Origin: Archangium gephyra
GTDB taxonomy: Bacteria; Myxococcota; Myxococcia; Myxococcales; Myxococcaceae
DNA length: 64,000 nucleotides
Direction: 5' to 3'
Assembly: GCF_001027285.1 (NCBI RefSeq)
Contig: NZ_CP011509.1
Span: 9,448,501 to 9,512,500, forward strand
The notes beneath the pieces were generated by a model. The model saw only the letters and a list, made by a program, of their open reading frames with translations, was not told the origin of the DNA and searched no databases. Position numbers and translations under genes: made by a program. Shown here piece by piece: positions 274-51,467 of the stretch. Each line of letters begins with the position of its first letter. Positions within the stretch are counted from its first letter, which is position 1.

Positions 274-2298
274 TTAGCACCCGCGAGCTTCGATGGAGAC
301 GGTCCGATCCGAGCTGGACACCCGCTGCTCCCGGCGGGCCACGACCTCATGGACCCCCAGCTCCGTGCCGCCACCGGGCAGGGTCCTCGTTCCCACCGCC
401 AGGCACTCGAAGCCCGTCTCCACCCGCGGCAGCAGATGCGCCCCGATGAGGAGCTGGTCCTTGCCCGCCAGCACGCTCAGCCGGGCCGCGGTATTCACCG
501 TCTCCCCGAGCACCGTGTAGTCCAGCCGGCCCAGCCCCCTGGCGCCGATGCTGCCGCAGATCAGCTCTCCCGAGTCCAGACCGATGCAGAGGCCATGGCC
601 ATACGGGGAGGCGTCCCCGGAACGGAAGGCCACGGCCCCCAGCTGCTGCCGGGCCGCCAGACAGGCCTCCAGGGCCCGGCCCAGGTGCCCCTGGCCCCGG
701 AACACCGCCATCACCGCGTCCCCGACGAACTTGTCCACCACGCCGCCCCGCGAGAGCAGCTCCGGGACGATGACCTCGAAGTTGGCGTTCAACCGGCGCA
801 CGGCCGCCTCGGGCTGCTCCCCGCGCAGCACCGGCGTGAAGTCCTTGAGATCCAGGAAGGCCACCGTGGCCTCCACCCGCTCCCCTTCCACCATGTCCGG
901 GCCGCGCATCAGCGGGGTGGCCCGCTCGAGGATGCCGCCGTGCACGAACATCCGCAGCAGCTGGTTCTCCTCCGCCGAGCGCACCATCTGGCGGAACTCC
1001 TTCACGTGCTTCAGCGCCTTGGCGAGGGTGGCGTCGAGATCCTGGAAGTCGATGGGCTTGACGAGGAAGTCGAAGGCCCCGCGGTTCATCGCCACGCGGA
1101 TGTTGCTCATGTCGCTGTAGGCGGAGACCATGATGACCTTGACGAGCGGATTGACCTCGCCCACCCGGGCCAGGAAGGTGAGCCCGTCCATCCTCGGCAT
1201 GTTGATGTCGGACAGCACGACATCCGTATCCGGGTGCTGGCGCAGCTTCTCCAGCGCGTCCTCGCCATCGCTGGCGAAGATGAACTCGTAGACCTTGTCC
1301 CGGATGTACTTGCGGAAGCGCTGCCGCATCAGCAGCTCCACGTCCGGCTCGTCATCGATGACGAGGATCTTCGAGGCCCGCGAGGGGCGGCTGGCCTCCA
1401 CCAGCGAGGCGAAGGCCGCGGCCAGCTCCCGCGCGGACTGGAAGCGGCGCGTGGGGTCCGCGTCCAGGGCACGGGCGAAGAAGGCATCCACGCCCTGGCC
1501 CAGCTCGGGCACCAGGGTGGAGGGCGGCTCGGCGAACGCGAGGGTGCCGCCGCGGCCCAACTCCCCGAGTGCATCCGCGGAGAAGGGGAAGCGACCGGTG
1601 AGGGCCCGGTAGGCCACCACGCCCAGCGACCAGACATCCGTGCGGTGGTCCACTCCGGCCTCGCCCCGCATCTGCTCGGGGCTCATGTAGCGCGGGGTGC
1701 CCATCACCCGGCCGGGTTGCTCGGAGGCCGCCGCGCTGCCGGCATCCAGCCGCGCCAGCCCGAAGTCGAGCACCTTCACCACCTCGTCGCTGTCGACGCG
1801 GGCCAGGAAGAGGTTGGCCGGTTTGAGATCCCTGTGGATGACGCCCGCGGAGTGGGCCGAGGCCAGCGCCCGGGCGATCTGATTGAGCAGCGAGGCGACC
1901 ACGGCGGGCGCCAGCCGGCCCTGCCGCTCCAGACGCGTCTCGAGATCCTCCCCCTCGAGCAGCTCCATCACGATGAAGGGCGTGTCCCCGTCCACGCCGT
2001 AGTCGTGGATCTGCACCACATGGGGGTTGCGCAGCTGGGCAACCGCCTTGGCCTCCTGCTCGAACTGGTGGCGCGCGGAGGCGGAGGCGATGCGCTCGGG
2101 CGTCATCAACTTGAGCGCCACCCGCCGCTGCAGCTGGGAGTCGAGCGCCACCCAGATGGCACCCATGCCACCGCCAGCGACCCTGCGCTCCACGACATAC
2201 CTGCCGCCAATCCTGCGTCCCGACATATCCGCGATCCACCTCGGGCACTGGCCGGGATTGCCCATCCCGTCGGGGCGGGACGGAGGACTCTCCGCCAC
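274..2298 (-). CDS. Ser/Thr protein kinase - receiver - adenylate/guanylate cyclase fusion
   Basis: A 674-residue soluble protein with three catalytic or signalling modules. Residues about 30-300 are a Hanks-type kinase (glycine loop AGGGMGAIW, HRDLKPAN at 155-162, DFG at 178-180). Residues about 308-430 are a two-component receiver (acidic pair in VIDDE, phospho-acceptor D364, KP near 413). Residues about 470-630 are a class III nucleotide cyclase with metal Asp residues D483 and D527. K523 before the second Asp and a Thr in LDYTVLGET look adenylyl-cyclase-like rather than guanylyl-like. An in-frame ATG at residue 25 (about 2226) could be the true start. The gene is divergent from a Crp/Fnr gene and followed by an FHA gene. 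The simplest reading is cAMP output gated by both phosphorylation systems (inference). Confidence 0.92.
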   Translation of the reverse strand: MAESPPSRPDGMGNPGQCPRWIADMSGRRIGGRYVVERRVAGGGMGAIWVALDSQLQRRVALKLMTPERIASASARHQFEQEAKAVAQLRNPHVVQIHDYGVDGDTPFIVMELLEGEDLETRLERQGRLAPAVVASLLNQIARALASAHSAGVIHRDLKPANLFLARVDSDEVVKVLDFGLARLDAGSAAASEQPGRVMGTPRYMSPEQMRGEAGVDHRTDVWSLGVVAYRALTGRFPFSADALGELGRGGTLAFAEPPSTLVPELGQGVDAFFARALDADPTRRFQSARELAAAFASLVEASRPSRASKILVIDDEPDVELLMRQRFRKYIRDKVYEFIFASDGEDALEKLRQHPDTDVVLSDINMPRMDGLTFLARVGEVNPLVKVIMVSAYSDMSNIRVAMNRGAFDFLVKPIDFQDLDATLAKALKHVKEFRQMVRSAEENQLLRMFVHGGILERATPLMRGPDMVEGERVEATVAFLDLKDFTPVLRGEQPEAAVRRLNANFEVIVPELLSRGGVVDKFVGDAVMAVFRGQGHLGRALEACLAARQQLGAVAFRSGDASPYGHGLCIGLDSGELICGSIGARGLGRLDYTVLGETVNTAARLSVLAGKDQLLIGAHLLPRVETGFECLAVGTRTLPGGGTELGVHEVVARREQRVSSSDRTVSIEARGC

Positions 2299-2339
2299 TC
2301 CCCGTTCTCCACATTTGGAGCATCATCGCACAATGGCCA

Positions 2340-2370
2340 GGGGGGCGTCGTGCGGTGAGGGCCGCCCCCC
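2340..2370. promoter_or_regulatory. Inverted repeat in the divergent kinase-cyclase / crp-like promoter region
   Basis: Perfect 8-bp arms (GGGGGGCG at 2340-2347 and CGCCCCCC at 2363-2370) are separated by 15 bases, in the 204-bp gap between the two divergent genes. It could be an operator or a leader hairpin. It does not resemble the classic TGTGA-N6-TCACA Crp site, and no such site was seen in the gap. Confidence 0.3.
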
Positions 2371-2502
2371 TGCTGTCGCGGGGAGGGAATCCTCGGGCCT
2401 GGACAGGAAGCGTGCAGGGCGACGATCGACCCTGGCCCGGCTGCATGGCTCCGTGCAAGATGACGTCCGGGTGCGCAGGATCCACCAGGAAAGCAGCGAG
2501 CC

Positions 2503-3183
2503 ATGTCCTATTCGGAGCTCCTCTCCCAGGTTCCCCTCTTCTCGTCACTCGGGTCCGACGACCTGGAGCGGCTCTCCGCGAGCCTGCAGCCGAGGCGCTA
2601 CGACCGGGGGGAGATCATCTTCCACCAGGGAGACGTGGGGACGGACCTCTACATCATCCGCAAGGGCGAGGTGACCATCCGCCTCAGCTCGGCCGATGGC
2701 CGGGAGGTCGCCCTGGCCCTGCTCCGGCGGGGAGATGCCTTCGGAGAGCTGGCGCTGCTGGACGAAGCGCCCCGCTCGACGGACGCGGTGGCGCGCGACG
2801 AGGCGGCGCTGCTCACCTTGAGCCGCAAGGACTTCCAGAAATTCCTGGAAGAGAGGCCGCAGGTGATACCGGCCCTGCTGGCCGAGCTGAGCCGTCTGGT
2901 GCGGCGCGTCACGCAGACGGTCCACGACGCCAGCTTCCTGGATGCACGCGCCCGACTGGCGCGCGTGCTGTTGGACCTGGCCCAGAGGCAGGGAGAGGCC
3001 GGCGGCGAGGGGGTGGCCATCACCCCCCGGCTCACCCAGACGGAGCTGGCCAACCTGGCCGGACTCACCCGGGAGAGCACCAACCGGTGGCTGCGCTTCT
3101 ACGCCCGCGAGGGACTGCTGTCCTACGAGGAGGGGCGCATCACCCTGTTGGAGCCCGACAACCTGCGGCTGAACGTGGAGTGA
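2503..3183 (+). CDS. Crp/Fnr-family transcriptional regulator
   Basis: A 226-residue protein with an N-terminal cyclic-nucleotide-binding fold (about 10-125) and a C-terminal winged helix (about 140-222). The phosphate-binding cassette at 80-97 (FGELALLDEAPRSTDAVA) keeps the Glu (E82) and Arg (R91) that contact the cyclic nucleotide in true cAMP/cGMP binders. No Fnr-type cysteine cluster is present. The recognition helix lies in LTQTELANLAGLTRESTNR. The gene is divergent from the kinase-cyclase fusion 204 bp away, so it is a natural candidate receiver for the cAMP made by that enzyme. This is inference from adjacency and the intact pocket. Confidence 0.92.
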   Translation: MSYSELLSQVPLFSSLGSDDLERLSASLQPRRYDRGEIIFHQGDVGTDLYIIRKGEVTIRLSSADGREVALALLRRGDAFGELALLDEAPRSTDAVARDEAALLTLSRKDFQKFLEERPQVIPALLAELSRLVRRVTQTVHDASFLDARARLARVLLDLAQRQGEAGGEGVAITPRLTQTELANLAGLTRESTNRWLRFYAREGLLSYEEGRITLLEPDNLRLNVE

Positions 3184-3184
3184 G

Positions 3185-4498
3185 TCAGCGCACGTAGACG
3201 TTGCGCAGCACGGAGATCATCGCCGCCACGTCCGCCGCGGCGGCCAGCTCGCGGATGGAGTGCATGGACATCATGGGGTTGCCCACGTCCACGGTGCGGA
3301 TGCCCAGCTCACCGGCGGAGATGGGGCCGATGGTGCTGCCACAGCCCAGGTCCGTGCGGGTGATGAAGTTCTGCGGCGTCACGCCCACCTCGCGGCAGCA
3401 GAGGGCGAACCAGGCCCAGGTCTCTCCGTCGGTGGCGTAGGACTGGTTGACGTTGGACTTGATGACGGGGCCGCCGCCCAGCACGGGCGCGTGCTTGGGC
3501 TCGTGCATGGACGCGTAGTTGGGGTGCAGCGCGTGCGCCATGTCCGCGGACACCATGAAGGAGCGCTGGATGGCCCGGTGCAGCGAGTCCCCCCGCCCGT
3601 CCGAGTGCGCCAGGGTGATGCGCTCGAGCAGATCCTTCAGGAAGGGAGAGGCGGCGCCCTGGGCACTGACGCTGCCGCACTCCTCGTGGTCGTACAGGAT
3701 GACACCGCAGGTGGCCTCGCGCGGCCCGCTCATGGCGAGCAGCGCGGACAGGCCGGCGTGGCTGCTGGCCAGGTTGTCCAGACGCGGCGCGTGGAGGAAC
3801 TCGCCAAAGGCGCCGGAGCGGGTGGAGGGCTGCAAGTCGTAGAGGCACAGGTCGAAGCCGAGGATGTCCGCCGGCTCCACCTGGGTGCCGCCCCGGGCGA
3901 GCTCCGCGACGAGCATGGCCTTGAGGTCCACCGGGCCCGAGCGCTCCAGGGCGAGCACCGGCACCAGGTGCTCCTGGGCGTTGAGCTTGAGGCCGTCGGT
4001 GTTGACGGTGCGGTTGAGGTGGATGGCGAGGTTGGGGATGCGCAGCAGGGGGCGGCGGAAGTCCACCAGGTGGTGGGTGAGGCGGCCGTCCTTCGCGCTC
4101 ACCACGCGGCCGGCGAGCGACAGGTCTCGGTCCAGCCAGGTGCTGAAGAGGACGCCGCCGTACACCTCCACGCCCAGCTGGTGGAAGCCGGAGCGCTGCA
4201 CGTGGGCATTGGGCTTGAGGCGCAGGTTGGGCGAGTCGGTGTGGGCGCCCACCAGGCGGAAGCCGGCGCGGTCCACCGGTACGGTACCGAGGTGGAAGGC
4301 GGCGATGCTGGTGTCGCCCCGGGTGACGTACACCTTGTCCCCGGGCTTGAGGTCCCAGGGCTCGCGCTCGTCGAGGGCGCGGTACCCCTGGGCGGTCAGG
4401 CGGCGGATGCTCTCGCGCACCGCGTGGTAGGGCGTGGGCGAGGCGTCGATGAAGGCCAACAGGTCATTGGCGGCGGCGTCGGTGTCGGAGGGAGTCAT
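3185..4498 (-). CDS. apeB: M18-family aspartyl aminopeptidase
   Basis: A 437-residue cytosolic zinc aminopeptidase of the M18 family, which removes N-terminal Asp/Glu from peptides. Visible landmarks are the metal-site stretch VGAHTDSPNLRLKP, the DNLASSHAG segment, the acidic pair in YDHEECGS, and a C-terminal His in MMSMHSIREL. The start at 4498 gives the expected N-terminus (helix then SPTPYHAV) and family length. The frame is open further upstream, but that stretch is antisense to the next gene. It converges on the crp-like gene with a single base between the two stops. Confidence 0.93.
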   Translation of the reverse strand: MTPSDTDAAANDLLAFIDASPTPYHAVRESIRRLTAQGYRALDEREPWDLKPGDKVYVTRGDTSIAAFHLGTVPVDRAGFRLVGAHTDSPNLRLKPNAHVQRSGFHQLGVEVYGGVLFSTWLDRDLSLAGRVVSAKDGRLTHHLVDFRRPLLRIPNLAIHLNRTVNTDGLKLNAQEHLVPVLALERSGPVDLKAMLVAELARGGTQVEPADILGFDLCLYDLQPSTRSGAFGEFLHAPRLDNLASSHAGLSALLAMSGPREATCGVILYDHEECGSVSAQGAASPFLKDLLERITLAHSDGRGDSLHRAIQRSFMVSADMAHALHPNYASMHEPKHAPVLGGGPVIKSNVNQSYATDGETWAWFALCCREVGVTPQNFITRTDLGCGSTIGPISAGELGIRTVDVGNPMMSMHSIRELAAAADVAAMISVLRNVYVR

Positions 4499-13644: not shown

Positions 13645-14358
13645 TCAGTGCTGGGGCTCCGCCGAGAGCGCGGCCGCCACTGCACCCCGTCCCTGCTGCA
13701 GACGCCAGACAATCATGTGTCCCACGCCGATGCACAGCAGCGTCACCCCCGCGCCCCAGGCCCCCGACGCGCCCGGCAGGGCGCCCAGGAAGACGGCCAG
13801 CCCCAGCCCCGAGGTGGACAGGATGATGCCCCGGCGCAGATCCGAGGGCTTGCGGCGCGGAACCGGCGCGAGCATCCCCTGGGGAATCTCCGCCCCCTTC
13901 TCCACCATCAGCCGCACCGTCTCGTGGAGCTGGCGCGCCTTGCGGTAGCTCGCCACCAGCCACGCGAGGAAGCCCGTCAGCATGCTGCCGAAGAAGAAGA
14001 TGCTGACGATGGCGGGAGTGGGATCGAAGTCCGCCTGGGAACGCCGCATCGACTCGCGCTGCTGGAGGAGCTCGTAGAGCTGCTGGGAGGTGAGCCGCCC
14101 GTTCGGGTCGATCTGCCGTGCCTCCGCCTCGAGCTGCTGGATCTCGGACTCCAGTTGCTGCCGCTCGGCCTTGAGCTCGTTCTCGCGGGCCTCCAATTCC
14201 CGGCGCTGGGCCTCCAGCTCCGGAGGCAGCGGGACCTTCACCGCGGGAGACTTGGAAGGGGTGGGAGGGGAAGCGGGGGTCTCGGGCATGGGGGCGGACA
14301 CGGCCCGCCCTCCCGCGAGGGTGGCCAGGAGGCACACCGTGAGCAACCAGGTCTTCAT
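13645..14358 (-). CDS. DUF6249-type membrane protein with coiled coil
   Basis: 237 residues. A signal peptide (MKTWLLTVCLLATLAGG) is followed by a Pro-rich linker, a strongly charged coiled coil (about 47-85, ELEAQRRELEARENELKAE) and three hydrophobic helices (PAIVSIFFFGSMLTGFLAWL, STSGLGLAVFLGALPG and GVTLLCIGVGHMIVW). VRLMVEKGAEIPQGMLAP and RKPSDLRRGI fit DUF6249, a family often found next to ECF sigma genes. It is the first gene of the sigma/anti-sigma operon and may be the envelope sensor or the main regulated product (inference). Confidence 0.8.
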   Translation of the reverse strand: MKTWLLTVCLLATLAGGRAVSAPMPETPASPPTPSKSPAVKVPLPPELEAQRRELEARENELKAERQQLESEIQQLEAEARQIDPNGRLTSQQLYELLQQRESMRRSQADFDPTPAIVSIFFFGSMLTGFLAWLVASYRKARQLHETVRLMVEKGAEIPQGMLAPVPRRKPSDLRRGIILSTSGLGLAVFLGALPGASGAWGAGVTLLCIGVGHMIVWRLQQGRGAVAAALSAEPQH

Positions 14359-14469
14359 GAGGAAATCCTTCCGTCGGTTTTACGGACGTTAGGACTCCCG
14401 GACCCGATTTCTTGGATTCACCCCGTGTTTTTTTTCCGGGTGCCGGCCTGTGGCATGGTGCGGCCCCAC

Positions 14470-15726
14470 ATGAGAACGCGCGCTCGCCTGCTCCTGTTGA
14501 TGCTGGGGACCGTCTGGCTCGGGCTTCCGGGCTGCTCCTCCACCCCCGTGGACCCTCCCGAGGAAGGCCCTCGCTATGACGGAGGCCCGGTCTCGTGGCA
14601 CCGGGACGTGTTGCCCATCGTCCAGGAGCGCTGCCAGGGTTGCCATACCCAGAACGGAGTCGCCCCCTTCGCGCTGGAGACGTACGGCGAGGCGTCCGCG
14701 ATGCACACGGCGCTGGCCAACTCGGTCCAGGCGCGCCGGATGCCTCCCTGGATGCCCGCGGAGGGCCGCCACGGCTTCCGGGACTCGCGGCGGCTGACGC
14801 AGGGCGAGGTGGACATCCTCTCGGCCTGGTCCCAGCAGGGCGCGCCTGAAGGGGACCCGATGGACGCACCTGCACCCCGCGAGCCCACGCCGCCCCTGGC
14901 CTGGACCGACCTGACGATCGGCCCCGAGGAGTCCTACCTGCCCAAGGACGAGGCCTCGGACGACTACCACTGCTTCCTGTTGGATCCCCACCTCGCGCAG
15001 CGGAAGGATCTGATCGGCTTCGAGGTGATGCCGGGGGTGAAGCAGCAGGTGCACCACGTGCTGCTCTTCGCCGCGCCCCGCCAGGCGGCCCTCGAGCGGG
15101 ATGCGCGTGAGGCGGAGCCCGGCTGGACGTGCTTCGGCGACTCGGGCATCGGGGGTGCTTCGCTGCTCGGCGCCTGGGCTCCGGGCTCGCCGCCCACGCG
15201 CTACCCGGAAGGCACGGGCGTGCGCGTGGCCGCGGACGCGGTCTTCGTCATGCAGGTCCACTACAACATCTCCCAGCGGCAGACCGGCACCGTCACCGCG
15301 ATGCATGGCGAGGCCCAGCCGGACCTCACGCGCATGTCGCTGCAGTTCGCGCGAGAGCCCGTCTCCAAGCTCGCCTCGCTCTACGCCCTGGTGGATGGCG
15401 GGTTCTCCATCCCTCCGGGCGCCACCGGGTACGCCCACCACAGCGAGCAGTACGTGCCCTCCGGCACCCTCTGGGGAGTGCTACCGCACATGCACACCAA
15501 GGGCAGGCGCATCCAGGTGGAGCTGGGCGGCGAGAGCCTCATCGAGATTCCCGCGTGGGACTTCCACTGGCAGCAGATGTACGTCTACAAGCAGCCGCTG
15601 CGCGTACCGCTCTTCAGCCAGATGAAGCTCACCTGCGTCTGGGACAACCCCACGCCCCGCACCGTGGAATGGGGCGAGGGCACCGATGACGAGATGTGTC
15701 TGGCCTACCTGTACATGACCGAGTGA
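14470..15726 (+). CDS. PHM/DBM-like copper monooxygenase lipoprotein with CxxCH motif
   Basis: 418 residues with a lipoprotein signal (LGLPGC). The N-terminal part (about 40-125) has a cytochrome-c-like CQGCH (55-59) followed by RRMPPWMP. The rest matches the two-domain ascorbate-dependent type II copper monooxygenases (peptidylglycine or dopamine beta-monooxygenase type). A complete copper set is visible: H195, H196 and H264 for CuH, and H340, H342 and M409 for CuM, with spacings close to rat PHM. It is exported to the periplasm or outer membrane. The substrate is unknown. The only other start candidate is an ATG five codons upstream. Confidence 0.87.
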   Translation: MRTRARLLLLMLGTVWLGLPGCSSTPVDPPEEGPRYDGGPVSWHRDVLPIVQERCQGCHTQNGVAPFALETYGEASAMHTALANSVQARRMPPWMPAEGRHGFRDSRRLTQGEVDILSAWSQQGAPEGDPMDAPAPREPTPPLAWTDLTIGPEESYLPKDEASDDYHCFLLDPHLAQRKDLIGFEVMPGVKQQVHHVLLFAAPRQAALERDAREAEPGWTCFGDSGIGGASLLGAWAPGSPPTRYPEGTGVRVAADAVFVMQVHYNISQRQTGTVTAMHGEAQPDLTRMSLQFAREPVSKLASLYALVDGGFSIPPGATGYAHHSEQYVPSGTLWGVLPHMHTKGRRIQVELGGESLIEIPAWDFHWQQMYVYKQPLRVPLFSQMKLTCVWDNPTPRTVEWGEGTDDEMCLAYLYMTE

Positions 15727-15757
15727 CGCGCTCACGCGCTCACGGCGAGGGACACCG

Positions 15758-16348
15758 ATGACGTGGCAAGGAACATGGAGGGGAGGGAGGTGGCGGGCGG
15801 CGCTCGTGGGCGCCCTGCTCTGCACCGGCCTGCCGGAAGCCCGGGCCGAGGAGCCGGACGCGGGGACGCCGGTGGCGAGCACCGCCCAGCGGCGCGGCAT
15901 CCTCACGCTGCGGGCCTCCTGGAGAACGGGCGTGCCGGATTACATGGGCGGCTCGCTGACGGTGCAGGCCCTTCCGCTGGTGGACGTGGAGCTGGGCGCC
16001 ACGCTCGTCAACCCCGTCGTCGGCTCCCTGTACCTCCGGGCGGGCCCCCGCTGGAGCCTGTACGAGGGCCGCGACGACGCGGGACGGGGCCTGTCGCTGA
16101 GGATGTCGGCGCTCGCGGGCGCTCGCGGCACCAGCGCCTACGTGGTGAGCGAGGGAAGCTTCGGCGCGCAGTGGGGGCTCAATGCCGTGGCGGCGCTCGA
16201 GGGAACGTATTGGCTGGCACGCTACTTCGGTGTCAGCGCGCAGCTCGTCGCCGGAGGCACCACCTACTTCCCCCTGCGGCGGCCCGTGCAGGTGCTGTTG
16301 GGCCCGCTGACGCCCGACGCGCGTTTCTCCCTGGGCCTGTCTTTCTGA
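15758..16348 (+). CDS. Secreted protein, probable small outer-membrane beta-barrel
   Basis: 196 residues. A signal peptide (RAALVGALLCTGLPEARA) precedes a mature protein of alternating hydrophobic strands (LTVQALPLVDVELGATLV, GSLYLRAGPRWSLYEG, VAALEGTYWLARYFGVSAQL) that ends in Phe (FSLGLSF), as outer-membrane barrels do. No family was recognised. It lies 31 bp downstream of the copper monooxygenase on the same strand and may be co-transcribed with it. Confidence 0.7.
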   Translation: MTWQGTWRGGRWRAALVGALLCTGLPEARAEEPDAGTPVASTAQRRGILTLRASWRTGVPDYMGGSLTVQALPLVDVELGATLVNPVVGSLYLRAGPRWSLYEGRDDAGRGLSLRMSALAGARGTSAYVVSEGSFGAQWGLNAVAALEGTYWLARYFGVSAQLVAGGTTYFPLRRPVQVLLGPLTPDARFSLGLSF

Positions 16349-16722
16349 GCCGTCAGGGAGACGCCTTCGACTGCCATCCATCCCCCGGAACTCAATGGTC
16401 GCCGGGGACGGAGCTCCGGGCAGGACGAGGTGATGCGGTGGGCGTGTGACGCCGCTCAGCTCTTCCTGGGTGATCCCGGCGGCTCCCTGGTCGAGGCCCA
16501 GAGCAAACAACGTCTGCATAGCATTCAGCGCTCGTCAGCTTGGAATGAGGGCTGCCGACCGGAAACACGGTTACCAGCAGCCAGGTAAGGAAGTGGTGAG
16601 GCCTGGATTGATGATTTCGTCACCTTGCACCGGCGACGAAGAACATTGAAACTCGCCTCTGCCGCGAACCCACGCTCGATCTGGATCGCGGCGAACTCAC
16701 GCCAAACCTGGACCTCTGCATC
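16349..16722. other. 374-bp intergenic region, no gene supported
   Basis: The composition drops in G+C toward the following lipoprotein gene. Short open frames exist, but none shows myxobacterial codon bias or a ribosome-binding site. No hairpin with a T-tract, tRNA or mobile-element end was seen. It probably holds the promoter of the next gene. Confidence 0.5.
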
Positions 16723-18228
16723 ATGAAGAAGTGCTTGCTGTTCGTCGGTCTCTCGCTGGCCGCATGTTCTCCCAATGCCGTTGAGACCGAGCCAGCTCAG
16801 TCCATCGCTCCACCCGTCAGCAGGGAGCGGCGTGATGAGCTGAAGATTGTATTTGGTAAGGCTTTTGCTACCGCGCTTGCCGACAGCCCGTCGCTGCGAA
16901 AGCTGCTCAAGGACGAAGCGCTGGCGAAGTTCGATAACGACTATGACGTCCTGTACCACCTCATCAAGGATCGCCCCCTCGCTGATGGGCAGACGGTCCG
17001 AGAGTTGCTGCTGGGATATTTCGAGAGCGAGGAGCAGCTGTCGAACGTCGAACGGGAACTCCCGCTGCTGACGATCTTCGTCCCCGAGCTGCCCAGGAAG
17101 TCCTTCTCGGCCCTATCCTGGGACACCGACACCCAGATTCCCGCGGTCGGCATCACCTCCTACAAGACCAATGACGTCACCCTCGTCGACCACAACGGAG
17201 AGGAGCGCATCATCGAGGCGGGCCTCATCCCCGCCTTCCCGGTCGTCGTCATCAAGGAAAACGAACGCGTCATCCAGGTAGCCAACAGCAACCCCAATAC
17301 CCTGGCGAAGGGACGGGTTCCGCAGGCCAGCGGCACTCCGAGCTTTGCCTTCCTGGCGGACTGTTTCGATGGCTCGCGCGCGGCCGACAAGTCCGCGGCC
17401 AGACTCACCAGGTCCCCAGACCTCAAACTGCTGAGGGCCTACAATCTCTACCTCAGCACCGACGGCTGGCACCGGGATTACATCTATTACAACATCTCTC
17501 CAACCCAGCCACGAGGTGCGTTCTCCTACGCCTACCAGGAGCACATCAGGAGCTTCAAGATGGCCGGGGATCCGGCGACCGCCTTTTCCAAGATCGCCGA
17601 CCAGACCGGTGAGCCGAGGCTGGTCAGCATCACCCCCGAACCCAACTCCGGGTGGACGGGCGGAGCATTTGAATTCAAGGTGAGAGTCCTTCTCAACGCC
17701 AAGAATGGACTCGGGCAGGAACTCGTCACCTACTTCAGCGCTCTGCCTGACGAGCTCTTCGATCTGACCTATGACGAGGTCGTCTGGTACTACTACAAGC
17801 CTCGAATCACCGGCCTGAAAACCAAGAGCCTGACGCTGCCGCTGTTCGCATGGGACCTCAATGACTATGCGTCCTCCATCAAGATTGAAGTCGAAGAGGT
17901 GGACATCACCGAGACCATCGTCCAGAGCGAATCGCGGACCGTGAAGTTCGCCACCAATTTCGCCATCGATCCCGCCGTGGGTTTCCTGCAGAAAATTGGC
18001 CTCAAATTCGGTGCGAGCCTCGAGGAGACGCGCACCGAGACAACCCAGCGGACCTATACCCTCGGCAATGACATCCTTGGCGCGGTCATCGTGAACTTCG
18101 CTGATAATGTGCTGGTCGGGCCCGTCACCGTAGACCCCATCTTCCTCCCCCCCATGCTGTACTGGTCGAGCCGCGAGTATTCCACGGGCTGGTACAGCAT
18201 CAGCGTGGAACCCACGCGCGTGCAGTAG
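16723..18228 (+). CDS. Large lipoprotein of unknown function
   Basis: 501 residues with a lipoprotein signal (FVGLSLAAC). The mature part has an N-terminal helical segment (about 35-115, RERRDELKIVFGKAFATALAD), a central region beginning KSFSALSWDTDTQIPAVGI, and a beta-rich C-terminal half (FEFKVRVLLNAKNG, SIKIEVEEVDITETIVQSES, IGLKFGASLEETRTE). No family was recognised. G+C is visibly lower, and Lys/Asn/Ile/Tyr use higher, than in the flanking genes, which suggests recent acquisition. No strong ribosome-binding site was seen. Confidence 0.75.
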   Translation: MKKCLLFVGLSLAACSPNAVETEPAQSIAPPVSRERRDELKIVFGKAFATALADSPSLRKLLKDEALAKFDNDYDVLYHLIKDRPLADGQTVRELLLGYFESEEQLSNVERELPLLTIFVPELPRKSFSALSWDTDTQIPAVGITSYKTNDVTLVDHNGEERIIEAGLIPAFPVVVIKENERVIQVANSNPNTLAKGRVPQASGTPSFAFLADCFDGSRAADKSAARLTRSPDLKLLRAYNLYLSTDGWHRDYIYYNISPTQPRGAFSYAYQEHIRSFKMAGDPATAFSKIADQTGEPRLVSITPEPNSGWTGGAFEFKVRVLLNAKNGLGQELVTYFSALPDELFDLTYDEVVWYYYKPRITGLKTKSLTLPLFAWDLNDYASSIKIEVEEVDITETIVQSESRTVKFATNFAIDPAVGFLQKIGLKFGASLEETRTETTQRTYTLGNDILGAVIVNFADNVLVGPVTVDPIFLPPMLYWSSREYSTGWYSISVEPTRVQ

Positions 18229-24128: not shown

Positions 24129-25520
24129 ATGCGTCCCCTCCTGCTGACCGTCCTGCTGCCCTCACTCGCCGCCGCGGGCGGCTTTCAGCGCCTGCACGCC
24201 GAACAGGCCTCGGCCACCAGCTTCCTGAAGAGCAACTGGAACAAGTACGAGGAGAACTACCACCCCAGCTACGTGCTCGATGACGATGTGAAGACAGCCT
24301 GGGTGGAGGGCGCCGAGGGAGACGGCCTCGGAGAGTCGCTGACGATTCCCGTGTCGGATCTCAAGTCGGCGCGAGCCATCCGCCTCGTGCTCTTCAATGG
24401 CTATCAGAAGTCCAAGGCGCTGCTGAGCGCCAACTCCGCGCCCAGGCAGCTCACCGTCACCGTGCGCGGCCCCGGCGGCCAGGAGTCCGCGAAGACGCAA
24501 CTCACGCTCGAGCGGAAGATGGGGCCTCAGTCCTTCGACCTCCCCGTGACGGGGGCCGTGGCGGAGGTGGTGCTCACCATCGACAGCGTGCACCCGGGCT
24601 CGAAGTACAAGGACACCTGCGTGTCGGACGTCCAGGTCTTCGTCGACAGCGAGGTGCCGTACAACGCCGCCGTCGAGAAGGGAAAGCGCGAGGCCCTGCT
24701 CCAGTGGAAGAAGGAGCGCCTGGAGGCCGCGAAGTACTTCGCCCGCCTGCCCAAGACGTACCCGTTCGCGTCCACGCGCTTCGAGGAGAAGGTGGACCAG
24801 AAGGTGCTCTCCAAGCGCTACGCCCGGGTGATCGACGAGAACAAGGACGGCTATGCCGACAAGGGCGTGCCCGCCAAGGACTTCGTCCCGCTGATGACCC
24901 AGATCAAGAAGGGACAGCTCGCCGGCCCCCTGGCCGAGCCGGACAAGGCCCTGCTCCAGGAGCTCGACACGCTCGCCGCCGCTCCGCCCCAGGACGGCAA
25001 GTGGTACTCGCTCACCCAGCAGGGACGCGTGCTCCTCCCGGAGAACGTCTCCTTCTCCCCGCTGATGGTGCCCTTGTTCAACCTGTCCGAGGCGACCCTC
25101 TTCGAGGCGAAGGGGCGGGGCTCCCTCAAGCCCAGGTTGAGCGACGAGGATGGATACCAGCAGGGCACGGTGCTCTCGAATCTGCTGGTACTCGAGGGCT
25201 CGGCCACCGACGTGAAGAAGGTGTACTTCACGCAGACGCGCGTCATCGTCGAGCGCACCACCGACACCACCACCACGCATGCCCTCGCGCTCCTGGAGGG
25301 CGGACGGCTCACGCGCCTGGTGACGCTGGAGACCAGCATGGATGTCGTCGGGGACCCGGTCGTGTCCGCGGGCGTGACGGCCGTGACGTACACGGAGGGA
25401 AAGATGTCTCGGCTGGAGAAGACCGAGCTGGTGGACAGCAATCCCGAGTACGACGGCGTGGACCCCCAATCGGGCATCCTGGTGCGGACGACGACGAGCG
25501 AGGCCGTGACGCGCTCATGA
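24129..25520 (+). CDS. Exported protein with NADase-type glycan-binding (discoidin-like) domain
   Basis: 463 residues. The signal peptide is LLTVLLPSLAAAG. Residues about 25-175 match the discoidin-like module called NADase-type glycan-binding (NYHPSYVLDDDVKTAWVEGA, SARAIRLVLFNGYQKSK, CVSDVQVFVDSE). Residues 180-463 are charged and uncharacterised, with WKKERLEAAKYFARLPKTYP and a DENKDGYADKG stretch that resembles a calcium-binding loop. Its stop overlaps the start of the cytochrome gene (ATGA), so the two are translationally coupled. The role is unknown; surface glycan or polymer recognition is inferred. Confidence 0.8.
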   Translation: MRPLLLTVLLPSLAAAGGFQRLHAEQASATSFLKSNWNKYEENYHPSYVLDDDVKTAWVEGAEGDGLGESLTIPVSDLKSARAIRLVLFNGYQKSKALLSANSAPRQLTVTVRGPGGQESAKTQLTLERKMGPQSFDLPVTGAVAEVVLTIDSVHPGSKYKDTCVSDVQVFVDSEVPYNAAVEKGKREALLQWKKERLEAAKYFARLPKTYPFASTRFEEKVDQKVLSKRYARVIDENKDGYADKGVPAKDFVPLMTQIKKGQLAGPLAEPDKALLQELDTLAAAPPQDGKWYSLTQQGRVLLPENVSFSPLMVPLFNLSEATLFEAKGRGSLKPRLSDEDGYQQGTVLSNLLVLEGSATDVKKVYFTQTRVIVERTTDTTTTHALALLEGGRLTRLVTLETSMDVVGDPVVSAGVTAVTYTEGKMSRLEKTELVDSNPEYDGVDPQSGILVRTTTSEAVTRS

Positions 25521-44143: not shown

Positions 44144-50575
<6,432 letters not shown>

Positions 50576-50612
50576 CCACCGCCTCGAGTGAGCGGGCAGC
50601 GGGTAAAGGGTG

Positions 50613-51467
50613 ATGAAGGAAGCGCCGGTGCGTGAAGCGGTCGAGGGCGAGGATGCCCTCGAGGACATCGAGCTGGATCTGCTCCTCGAGGGCATCATGC
50701 GGCGCTACGGCCTGGACTTCCGGGGCTACGCCCGCATGTCCCTGCGGCGGCGGGTGTGGAACATGGTCCACGCCCAGAAGCTGGGGACGCTCTCCGCGCT
50801 CCAGGCCAAGGTGCTGCACGACCCCTCCACCATGGAGGAGCTGCTGCAGCACCTGTCCGTCAACACCACCACCATGTTCCGGGACCCGAGCTTCTTCGTG
50901 GCGTTCCGGGAGAAGGTGGTCCCCCACCTGTTCTCGGCCCCCTTCGTGCGCATCTGGCACGCGGGGTGCTCCACGGGTGAGGAGGTGTACTCGCTGGCCA
51001 TCCTCCTCACGGAGGCGGGCCTGTACGAGCGCAGCCGCATCTACGCCACGGACATGAACGCGGCCGTGGTGGAGCGGGCCAAGTCCGGCATCTTCCCCAT
51101 GGAGCACATGCGGGAGTACACGGCCAACTACCTGCGCGCCGGGGGCACCTCGGCCTTCAGCGACTACTACACGGCCAACTACGACCACGCCATCTTCAAG
51201 GCCTCGCTGCGCAAGAACATCGTCTTCGCGCAGCACAACCTGGTGAGCGACGGCACCTTCAACGAGTTCAACGTCATCCTCTGCCGCAACGTGCTCATCT
51301 ACTTCGGCACGGAGCTGCAGGGGCGGGTGTACCGGCTGTTGAACCAGTCCCTGCGGCGCTTCGGTGTGCTCGCGCTCGGACGGGGCGAGACGCTGCGCCA
51401 CACCGTCATCGAGAACGAGTACGACGAGGTGGATGTGCAGGAGCGCCTCTACCGCCGCCGCGCCTGA
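50613..51467 (+). CDS. cheR: CheR-type protein-glutamate methyltransferase
   Basis: 284 residues from the ATG at 50613 (a GTG one codon upstream is possible). The N-terminal helical domain (about 15-85) has GYARMSLRRRVWNMVHAQ and LLQHLSVNTTTMFRDPSFF. The AdoMet motif is HAGCSTGEEVYSLAILL, then ATDMNAAVVERAKSGIF and NVILCRNVLIYF. CheR methylates glutamates in the signalling tips of chemoreceptors. No receptor or CheB gene lies in the window. It lies 37 bp after the poly-HAMP kinase. Confidence 0.93.
   Translation: MKEAPVREAVEGEDALEDIELDLLLEGIMRRYGLDFRGYARMSLRRRVWNMVHAQKLGTLSALQAKVLHDPSTMEELLQHLSVNTTTMFRDPSFFVAFREKVVPHLFSAPFVRIWHAGCSTGEEVYSLAILLTEAGLYERSRIYATDMNAAVVERAKSGIFPMEHMREYTANYLRAGGTSAFSDYYTANYDHAIFKASLRKNIVFAQHNLVSDGTFNEFNVILCRNVLIYFGTELQGRVYRLLNQSLRRFGVLALGRGETLRHTVIENEYDEVDVQERLYRRRA

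Follow-up and report, generated by a model that had tools for sequence, protein, structure and literature searches.

A lipoprotein family of Myxococcota that joins a c-type cytochrome domain to a PHM/DBH-type copper monooxygenase

Peptidylglycine hydroxylase (PHM) and dopamine beta-hydroxylase (DBH) are the standard models for O2 activation by two distant coppers, CuH and CuM, which lie about 11 Å apart. Their superfamily is known mainly from eukaryotes; in animals, enzymes of the PHM kind make hormones and neurotransmitters, and ascorbate is better known as vitamin C. In PHM, the CuH histidines are the site of electron entry, and in DBH the DOMON domain sits N-terminal. The electrons of both enzymes come from ascorbate, according to two papers (PMC6123673, PMC3197665), the first of which describes one reducing equivalent being delivered to each copper of PHM (PMC6123673). 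In the three-domain copper nitrite reductase, a tethered cytochrome c is a fused redox partner that also controls substrate access (PMC13324648).

The gene analyzed here lies in a window of 64,000 nucleotides, the whole stretch of DNA that was examined, within a 12.49 Mb contig of Archangium gephyra. It encodes a lipoprotein in which a c-type cytochrome domain precedes the two subdomains of a type II copper monooxygenase (Table 1). Read from 14455, the protein comprises 423 residues, and residues are counted from this position throughout. The start at 14470, on which the original prediction was based, corresponds to Met6 of this reading and is equally possible. Two orthologues share 91 and 89% identity with the window protein, and the alignment with the former (L007) begins at query residue 6, i.e., at 14470; of the matches that carry a species name, those to Archangium lansinium and A. 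violaceum are the closest. Comparison with two Archangium orthologues gives dN/dS values of 0.25 and 0.27, and comparison with a more distant orthologue gives 0.55, so that the gene is under purifying selection. No family was matched in an NCBIfam scan of the window protein alone (E≤1) or by PADLOC.

Table 1. Features of the fused gene and of the gene that follows it, with positions in the window
Feature	Position	Strand	Basis
Whole gene: lipoprotein, c-type cytochrome domain and two-domain copper monooxygenase	14455..15726	+	ORF list, Pfam, orthologues
Lipoprotein signal peptide, lipobox LPGC; presumed lipid anchor Cys27	14470..14535	+	sequence
c-type cytochrome domain, residues 44-142; C60-x-x-C63-H64, Met96 in MPPW	14584..14880	+	conservation, PF13442
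Copper monooxygenase N-subdomain, residues 167-274; H200, H201, H269; C173, C226	14953..15276	+	PF01082
Copper monooxygenase C-subdomain, residues 341-420; H345, H347, M414; C394, C415; family motif WDFHWQ, residues 368-373	15475..15714	+	PF03712
Possible co-transcribed gene, exported, apparently beta-rich, no Pfam match	15758..16348	+	31 bases downstream of gene

Two sets of relatives were used for comparison, both including the window protein. The first holds 55 sequences whose matches cover at least 330 residues of the query, with duplicates and shorter matches dropped, among them L010, which is truncated by the end of its contig. The second holds 83 distinct sequences, for which the copper region was the sole criterion (at least 200 model positions). 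The lipobox-like LPGC and its Cys27 support the expected export as a lipoprotein: this cysteine aligns in 54 of the 55 sequences, and of the 81 fused proteins in the wider set, 67 have a loose lipobox pattern upstream. A C..CH arrangement, here CQGCH at residues 60-64, arises in 0.33% of shuffles of the same residues. Conservation is more telling than this rarity: across 55/55 sequences, none of C60, C63, H64, M96, and the six copper ligands varies. The observation from which the analysis started, a CxxCH-containing lipoprotein fused to a type II copper monooxygenase in a reading frame at this site, is thus confirmed and its architecture right, and the interpretation attached to it is partly supported overall.

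On the strength of its Pfam domains, ligands, and predicted fold, the C-terminal half can be assigned to the type II copper monooxygenase superfamily (PHM/DBH/MOXD). Both subdomain models score above their cut-offs in the window protein (PF01082, 33.1 bits against 30; PF03712, 29 bits against 23), and at E≤0.01 the latter is found in 55/55 and the former in 51/55 members. A search of the PDB with the single sequence retrieved rat PHM (3e-12, residues 162-419), and with a 55-member profile PHM (5.5e-21) and DBH (1.2e-16) were retrieved. An AlphaFold model computed from a 10-sequence alignment (pLDDT 80.1, pTM 0.78) superposes on PHM in VIA-align with a Z score of 23.5 and an rmsd of 2.7 Å over 253 residues; DBH follows at 21.9, and the next fold, PNGase F, reaches only 8.6. 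The model thus shows the two-subdomain fold of PHM. The predicted CuH ligands are H200, H201, and H269 and the predicted CuM ligands H345, H347, and M414, previously listed as H195 to M409 from the later start, and their spacings (1/68/76/2/67) are near those of rat PHM (1/64/70/2/70), as had been proposed. The six are invariant in the aligned set and in all 83 copper regions. Cysteines at the positions of PHM Cys81, 126, 293, and 315 are kept in 55/55 sequences, the equivalent of 126 being missing in one of the 83, and the window protein has A, G, and Q where PHM has Cys114, 131, and 227.

Such a protein might bind or store copper at the envelope without acting on oxygen, a reading for which one could cite its lipoprotein nature and the fact that the literature searched yielded no enzyme activity for the family. 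However, both of the dissimilar copper sites are kept in 83/83 sequences, including the CuM methionine, and a redox domain is fused to them; the glutamine of the QVHY motif, retained in 54/55 members, goes beyond what metal binding entails. We consider a storage role very unlikely and treat the copper half as a putative oxygenase.

Which oxygenase it resembles most depends on the subdomain. A profile of ten N-subdomain sequences prefers PHM (2.7e-11 versus 0.0046 for DBH), whereas a profile of six C-subdomain sequences prefers DBH (4.9e-6 versus 0.13 for PHM). Two PHM residues, Arg240 and Asn316, we take to hold the peptide carboxylate, a role on which our literature search found no paper. The position of Arg240 is arginine in 0/83 sequences and L, M, A, F, T, G, I, or S in 76/83 (Leu343 in the window protein); that of Asn316 is asparagine in 0/83, being L, F, V, I, M, or Y (Leu416 in the window protein). 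Together with a C-subdomain nearer to DBH, the absence of both residues from all 83 sequences indicates that the protein is not specifically PHM-like; its PHM-type fold and copper ligands are supported. A true bacterial peptidylglycine hydroxylase, acting on peptides with a C-terminal glycine, would account for PHM being the best solved relative and for the preference of the N-subdomain, and a gene read as dipeptidyl-peptidase-IV-like divergently adjoins the gene in 6/20 relatives' loci. The missing Arg240 and Asn316 equivalents speak against it, as does a Pfam scan of the ten nearby ORFs, in which no PAL-like gene was recognized. This possibility is slight in the extreme, and glycine-extended peptides, one of the substrates originally suggested, are an unlikely choice.

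The second suggested class, dopamine-like compounds, fares little better. In a structural model of DBH, Glu265, Glu366, Gln410, and, doubtfully, Tyr491 are proposed dopamine contacts (PMC3197665). In our alignment, Gln410 falls at Leu343, and the DBH tyrosine taken as Tyr491 falls at Tyr418. Residue 203 is I, L, V, or A in 54/55 sequences. Glu265 would presumably correspond to Leu203 and Glu366 to approximately Ser308, so that three of the four modeled contacts seem to be replaced, the two glutamates presumably so. A bacterial dopamine or phenethylamine beta-hydroxylase would be in keeping with the C-subdomain profile, with the retained Tyr418, and with position 416, which is mostly L, F, or V where DBH has Val; it is at odds with the apparently substituted contacts and with a Pfam scan in which no DOMON domain was found. 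We judge this identity improbable, and dopamine is not favored as a substrate. The apparent loss of the charged contacts of both enzymes points instead to a neutral or hydrophobic substrate. From these sequence comparisons, we regard the fused proteins as a separate, sister branch with a probably more hydrophobic pocket rather than as PHM.

The N-terminal half was originally described as a cytochrome c-like CxxCH segment. Its c-type character is supported, and more than a motif is involved: a whole domain is conserved, with an invariant candidate ligand, Met96, in addition to the attachment site. Met96 lies in an MPP(W) motif, 32 residues after the haem histidine in 52/55 sequences, and in the wider set each of the 81 fused proteins has an MPP methionine 32-47 residues after that histidine. 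Because it is the sole Met, His, Cys, Tyr, or Lys outside CxxCH that is invariant across residues 44-142 (55/55), Met96 is the best candidate for the sixth, distal ligand. The match of the window sequence to PF13442 reaches 17.2 bits (E 0.0066), below the cut-off of 27, and 32/55 members match at E≤0.01; NF052339 matches three of the 55, at best with 5.1e-6. When a profile of the domain was compared with the PDB, the best matches were a cytochrome with a single haem, at E 0.00045, and the alpha subunit of hydrazine synthase (5C2V), at 0.002; both are partial, and their weakness is shown by the appearance of antitermination protein Q at similar E-values. Modeled alone, the domain reached a pLDDT of 72.7; Foldseek returned no significant match for this isolated model, and the top row in VIA-align was hydrazine synthase 5C2V with a Z score of only 2.9, a lack of match that says nothing about the fold of the domain. 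The protein combines CxxCH with a signal for export, and PF01578, a widespread cytochrome c assembly family (9/14 control genomes), is matched three times in its genome; on these grounds the domain can be classed as a probable c-type cytochrome with putative haem attachment.

The fusion, first noticed as a single case, is real and is a recurrent feature of a Myxococcota family. With the full-length query (E≤1e-5), matches, some of them partial, were found in 44/96 genomes of the bacterial family and in 67/195 genomes of the phylum sample. PF03712 alone matched in 65/189 phylum-sample genomes, 64 of them above the cut-off. The A. gephyra genome itself holds three copies of the fused enzyme, the other two being diverged paralogues at C1:285615-286856 (L002, L005) and C1:8922318-8923661 (L001, L004). 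A CxxCH occurs within 160 residues upstream of the copper region in 81/83 sequences, a fraction that is biased upwards, since it was the full-length fused query that had retrieved many of these loci. It is also important to note that nine short matches were left out of this set; one is fused (the truncated L010) and the other eight have no CxxCH in view (L122-L128 and L132), so that unfused forms are under-counted among the 83.

A counter-sample of 20 places matching PF03712, most of which are absent among the full-length-query matches listed, was taken to offset this bias; six of them (L116, L117, L119, L120, L131, and L133) duplicate places of earlier PF03712 loci. Seven are fused by motif scan (L116-L120, L134, and L135), and two more are fused on reading, namely L130, which comprises two genes, and L131, the same gene as L086. 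Seven with the N-terminus in view are unfused (L121, L122, L123, L125, L126, L127, and L132). The remainder start inside the protein (L124 and L128) or are fragments (L129 and L133). At L130 (approximately 368-3848, genome G191), the two fused copies are adjacent, and in both of them a long insertion separates the HH motif from the third CuH histidine. The reverse comparison, in which a haem-domain profile was run against 117 genomes, gave 56 matches of at least 69 bits, all of which, among the matches listed and compared by eye, lie at places found in the monooxygenase searches; most weaker matches (<69 bits) fall outside such places. This profile favors fused proteins because it was built from them.

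Relatives without the haem domain extend beyond the phylum. A search of plasmid records returned one match, from Nonomuraea (Actinomycetota), which lacks the haem domain; the protein (L085) is lipoprotein-like and carries a related copper domain without CxxCH. Its record, NZ_LT559118.1, is labeled a plasmid and is more likely a chromosome, since it is 11.85 Mb long. That haem-free relatives exist (L085, L121, L122, L123, L125, L126, L127, and L132) indicates that the haem is dispensable for this kind of protein, and they constitute a natural contrast set. Among the unfused Myxococcota proteins, L122, L127, and the truncated L128 have an asparagine after the MetCys pair, at the position of PHM Asn316, unlike all 83 sequences of the copper-region set. 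In a tree of the 83 copper regions and rat PHM, several deep nodes are poorly supported and fused lineages flank the unfused L085 and L121 on both sides, so that no conclusion on gain versus loss of the haem domain can be drawn from it.

The haem-free relatives bear on the role of the haem in the fused enzyme. Conceivably it is not an electron donor at all: the coppers would be served by a diffusible reductant or would use H2O2 as co-substrate, and the haem would function in docking or as a sensor, gate, or electron sink. The haem-free proteins L085 and L121 have the complete set of six copper ligands, further relatives also lack the haem, and in the nitrite reductase the tethered haem domain also controls substrate access (PMC13324648). 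Yet CxxCH and the MPP methionine are retained together in 81/83 divergent copies, the spacing of haem histidine and methionine is nearly constant, and the CuH histidines are just as invariant (55/55). We regard a haem that does not donate electrons as rather unlikely and retain the haem as the putative electron feed of the copper half, a role that is consistent with the data.

The surroundings of the gene were compared across 20 relatives' loci, the two own paralogues, and the window. The gene at 15758-16348 and neighbors encoding AhpC/TSA and a sigma factor recur in three Archangium loci only among those compared, so that the downstream gene is not a shared part of the system. Genes read as dnaX-, ybaB-, and recR-like lie near the gene in 6/20 relatives' loci; like the dipeptidyl-peptidase-IV-like neighbor, they look like an inherited position. 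Some paralogue neighbors were classified by Pfam as ceramidase-like, 5'-nucleotidase-like, and peptidase genes, which suggest no shared function; one paralogue is flanked on one side by a neutral ceramidase-like gene (PF04734) and on the other by an ORF that reads as outer-membrane-protein-like and has no Pfam match. The neighborhood was rejected as a functional clue, as the loci compared have no common neighbor that would hint at a substrate or redox partner. Within 14300-16800, no promoter-like sites were found, and the one terminator-like site is at chance level and on the opposite strand. A search of the genome for PF10029 gave no match and is uninformative. Elsewhere, the window encodes a fusion of protein kinase, receiver, and guanylate/adenylate cyclase domains (274-2298, minus strand; PF00069, PF00072, and PF00211), a protein with an NADase_transloc F5/8 type C domain (24129-25520; PF25302), and a 2143-residue hybrid histidine kinase with 11 HAMP stretches, a GAF domain, and three receiver domains (44144-50575), which is adjoined by a CheR methyltransferase (50610-51467).

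Taken together, the simplest model would be a lipid-anchored envelope enzyme with two functional halves. The C-terminal half would be a dicopper C-H hydroxylase of the PHM/DBH superfamily, with O2 and substrate binding at CuM; the N-terminal half would be a mono-haem c-type cytochrome ligated by His64 and Met96. The cytochrome would accept single electrons from a periplasmic electron-transfer chain and pass them to CuH and on to CuM. Two electrons, one per copper, would stand in for the two ascorbates of PHM and DBH, after which one O2 would hydroxylate a C-H bond of the substrate, probably a neutral or hydrophobic one. We consider it likely that this is the best explanation as a whole, namely a cytochrome c-fused dicopper hydroxylase whose haem feeds CuH in place of ascorbate. 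A broader proposition, to which we give an even chance, is that these proteins represent a large, ascorbate-independent branch of the PHM/DBH superfamily that is lipid-anchored, wired through the cytochrome to the respiratory chain, and directed at hydrophobic, non-peptide, and non-catecholamine substrates at the envelope.

Among the papers listed in searches of open-licence literature, none describes the fusion of a PHM/DBH-type enzyme with a cytochrome c, and domain databases may already list the architecture. As a name, 'cytochrome c-fused type II copper monooxygenase' should be apt, denoting a variant of the PHM/DBH kind. With a covalent haem beside the same copper pair, the enzyme could be read out optically and supplied with single electrons under control, so that the path and timing of CuH-to-CuM transfer could be followed directly. 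More generally, a superfamily associated with eukaryotes is common in one bacterial phylum, where about a third of the sampled genomes match PF03712, and may take part there in the chemistry of the cell envelope.

Several described systems share features with the window protein. The haem domain of hydrazine synthase alpha and the single-haem cytochromes c of the PF13442 type have a similar haem-motif region, to the extent that the weak and partial matches allow; to our knowledge, none of these contains a copper monooxygenase. The three-domain haem-copper nitrite reductases have an enzyme fold unrelated to the PHM-type fold; they carry the cytochrome at the C-terminus and reduce nitrite rather than activating O2. 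The likeness, in nitrite reductases of the Ralstonia pickettii type, is that a cytochrome c is tethered to a copper enzyme as its built-in redox partner (PMC13324648). Human DBH (4ZEL) shares the fold and copper ligands and a C-subdomain sequence nearer to the window protein than that of PHM, and in both proteins an extra domain is N-terminal to the copper half. This is a DOMON domain in DBH (PMC3197665) and a c-type cytochrome domain in the window protein, in which a Pfam scan gave no DOMON match at E≤1; the modeled dopamine contact Gln410 is not kept, and Glu265 and Glu366 are probably not. With rat PHM (1OPM/1PHM), the window protein has in common the fold, the spacing of the six ligands, the positions of Tyr79 and Gln170, and those of Cys81, 126, 293, and 315. 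Equivalents of Arg240, Asn316, Cys114, Cys131, and Cys227 are absent, and, given the pairings that we assume for PHM, presumably not all five disulfides form. In comparison with PHM, the window protein adds an N-terminal c-type cytochrome domain and a lipid anchor.
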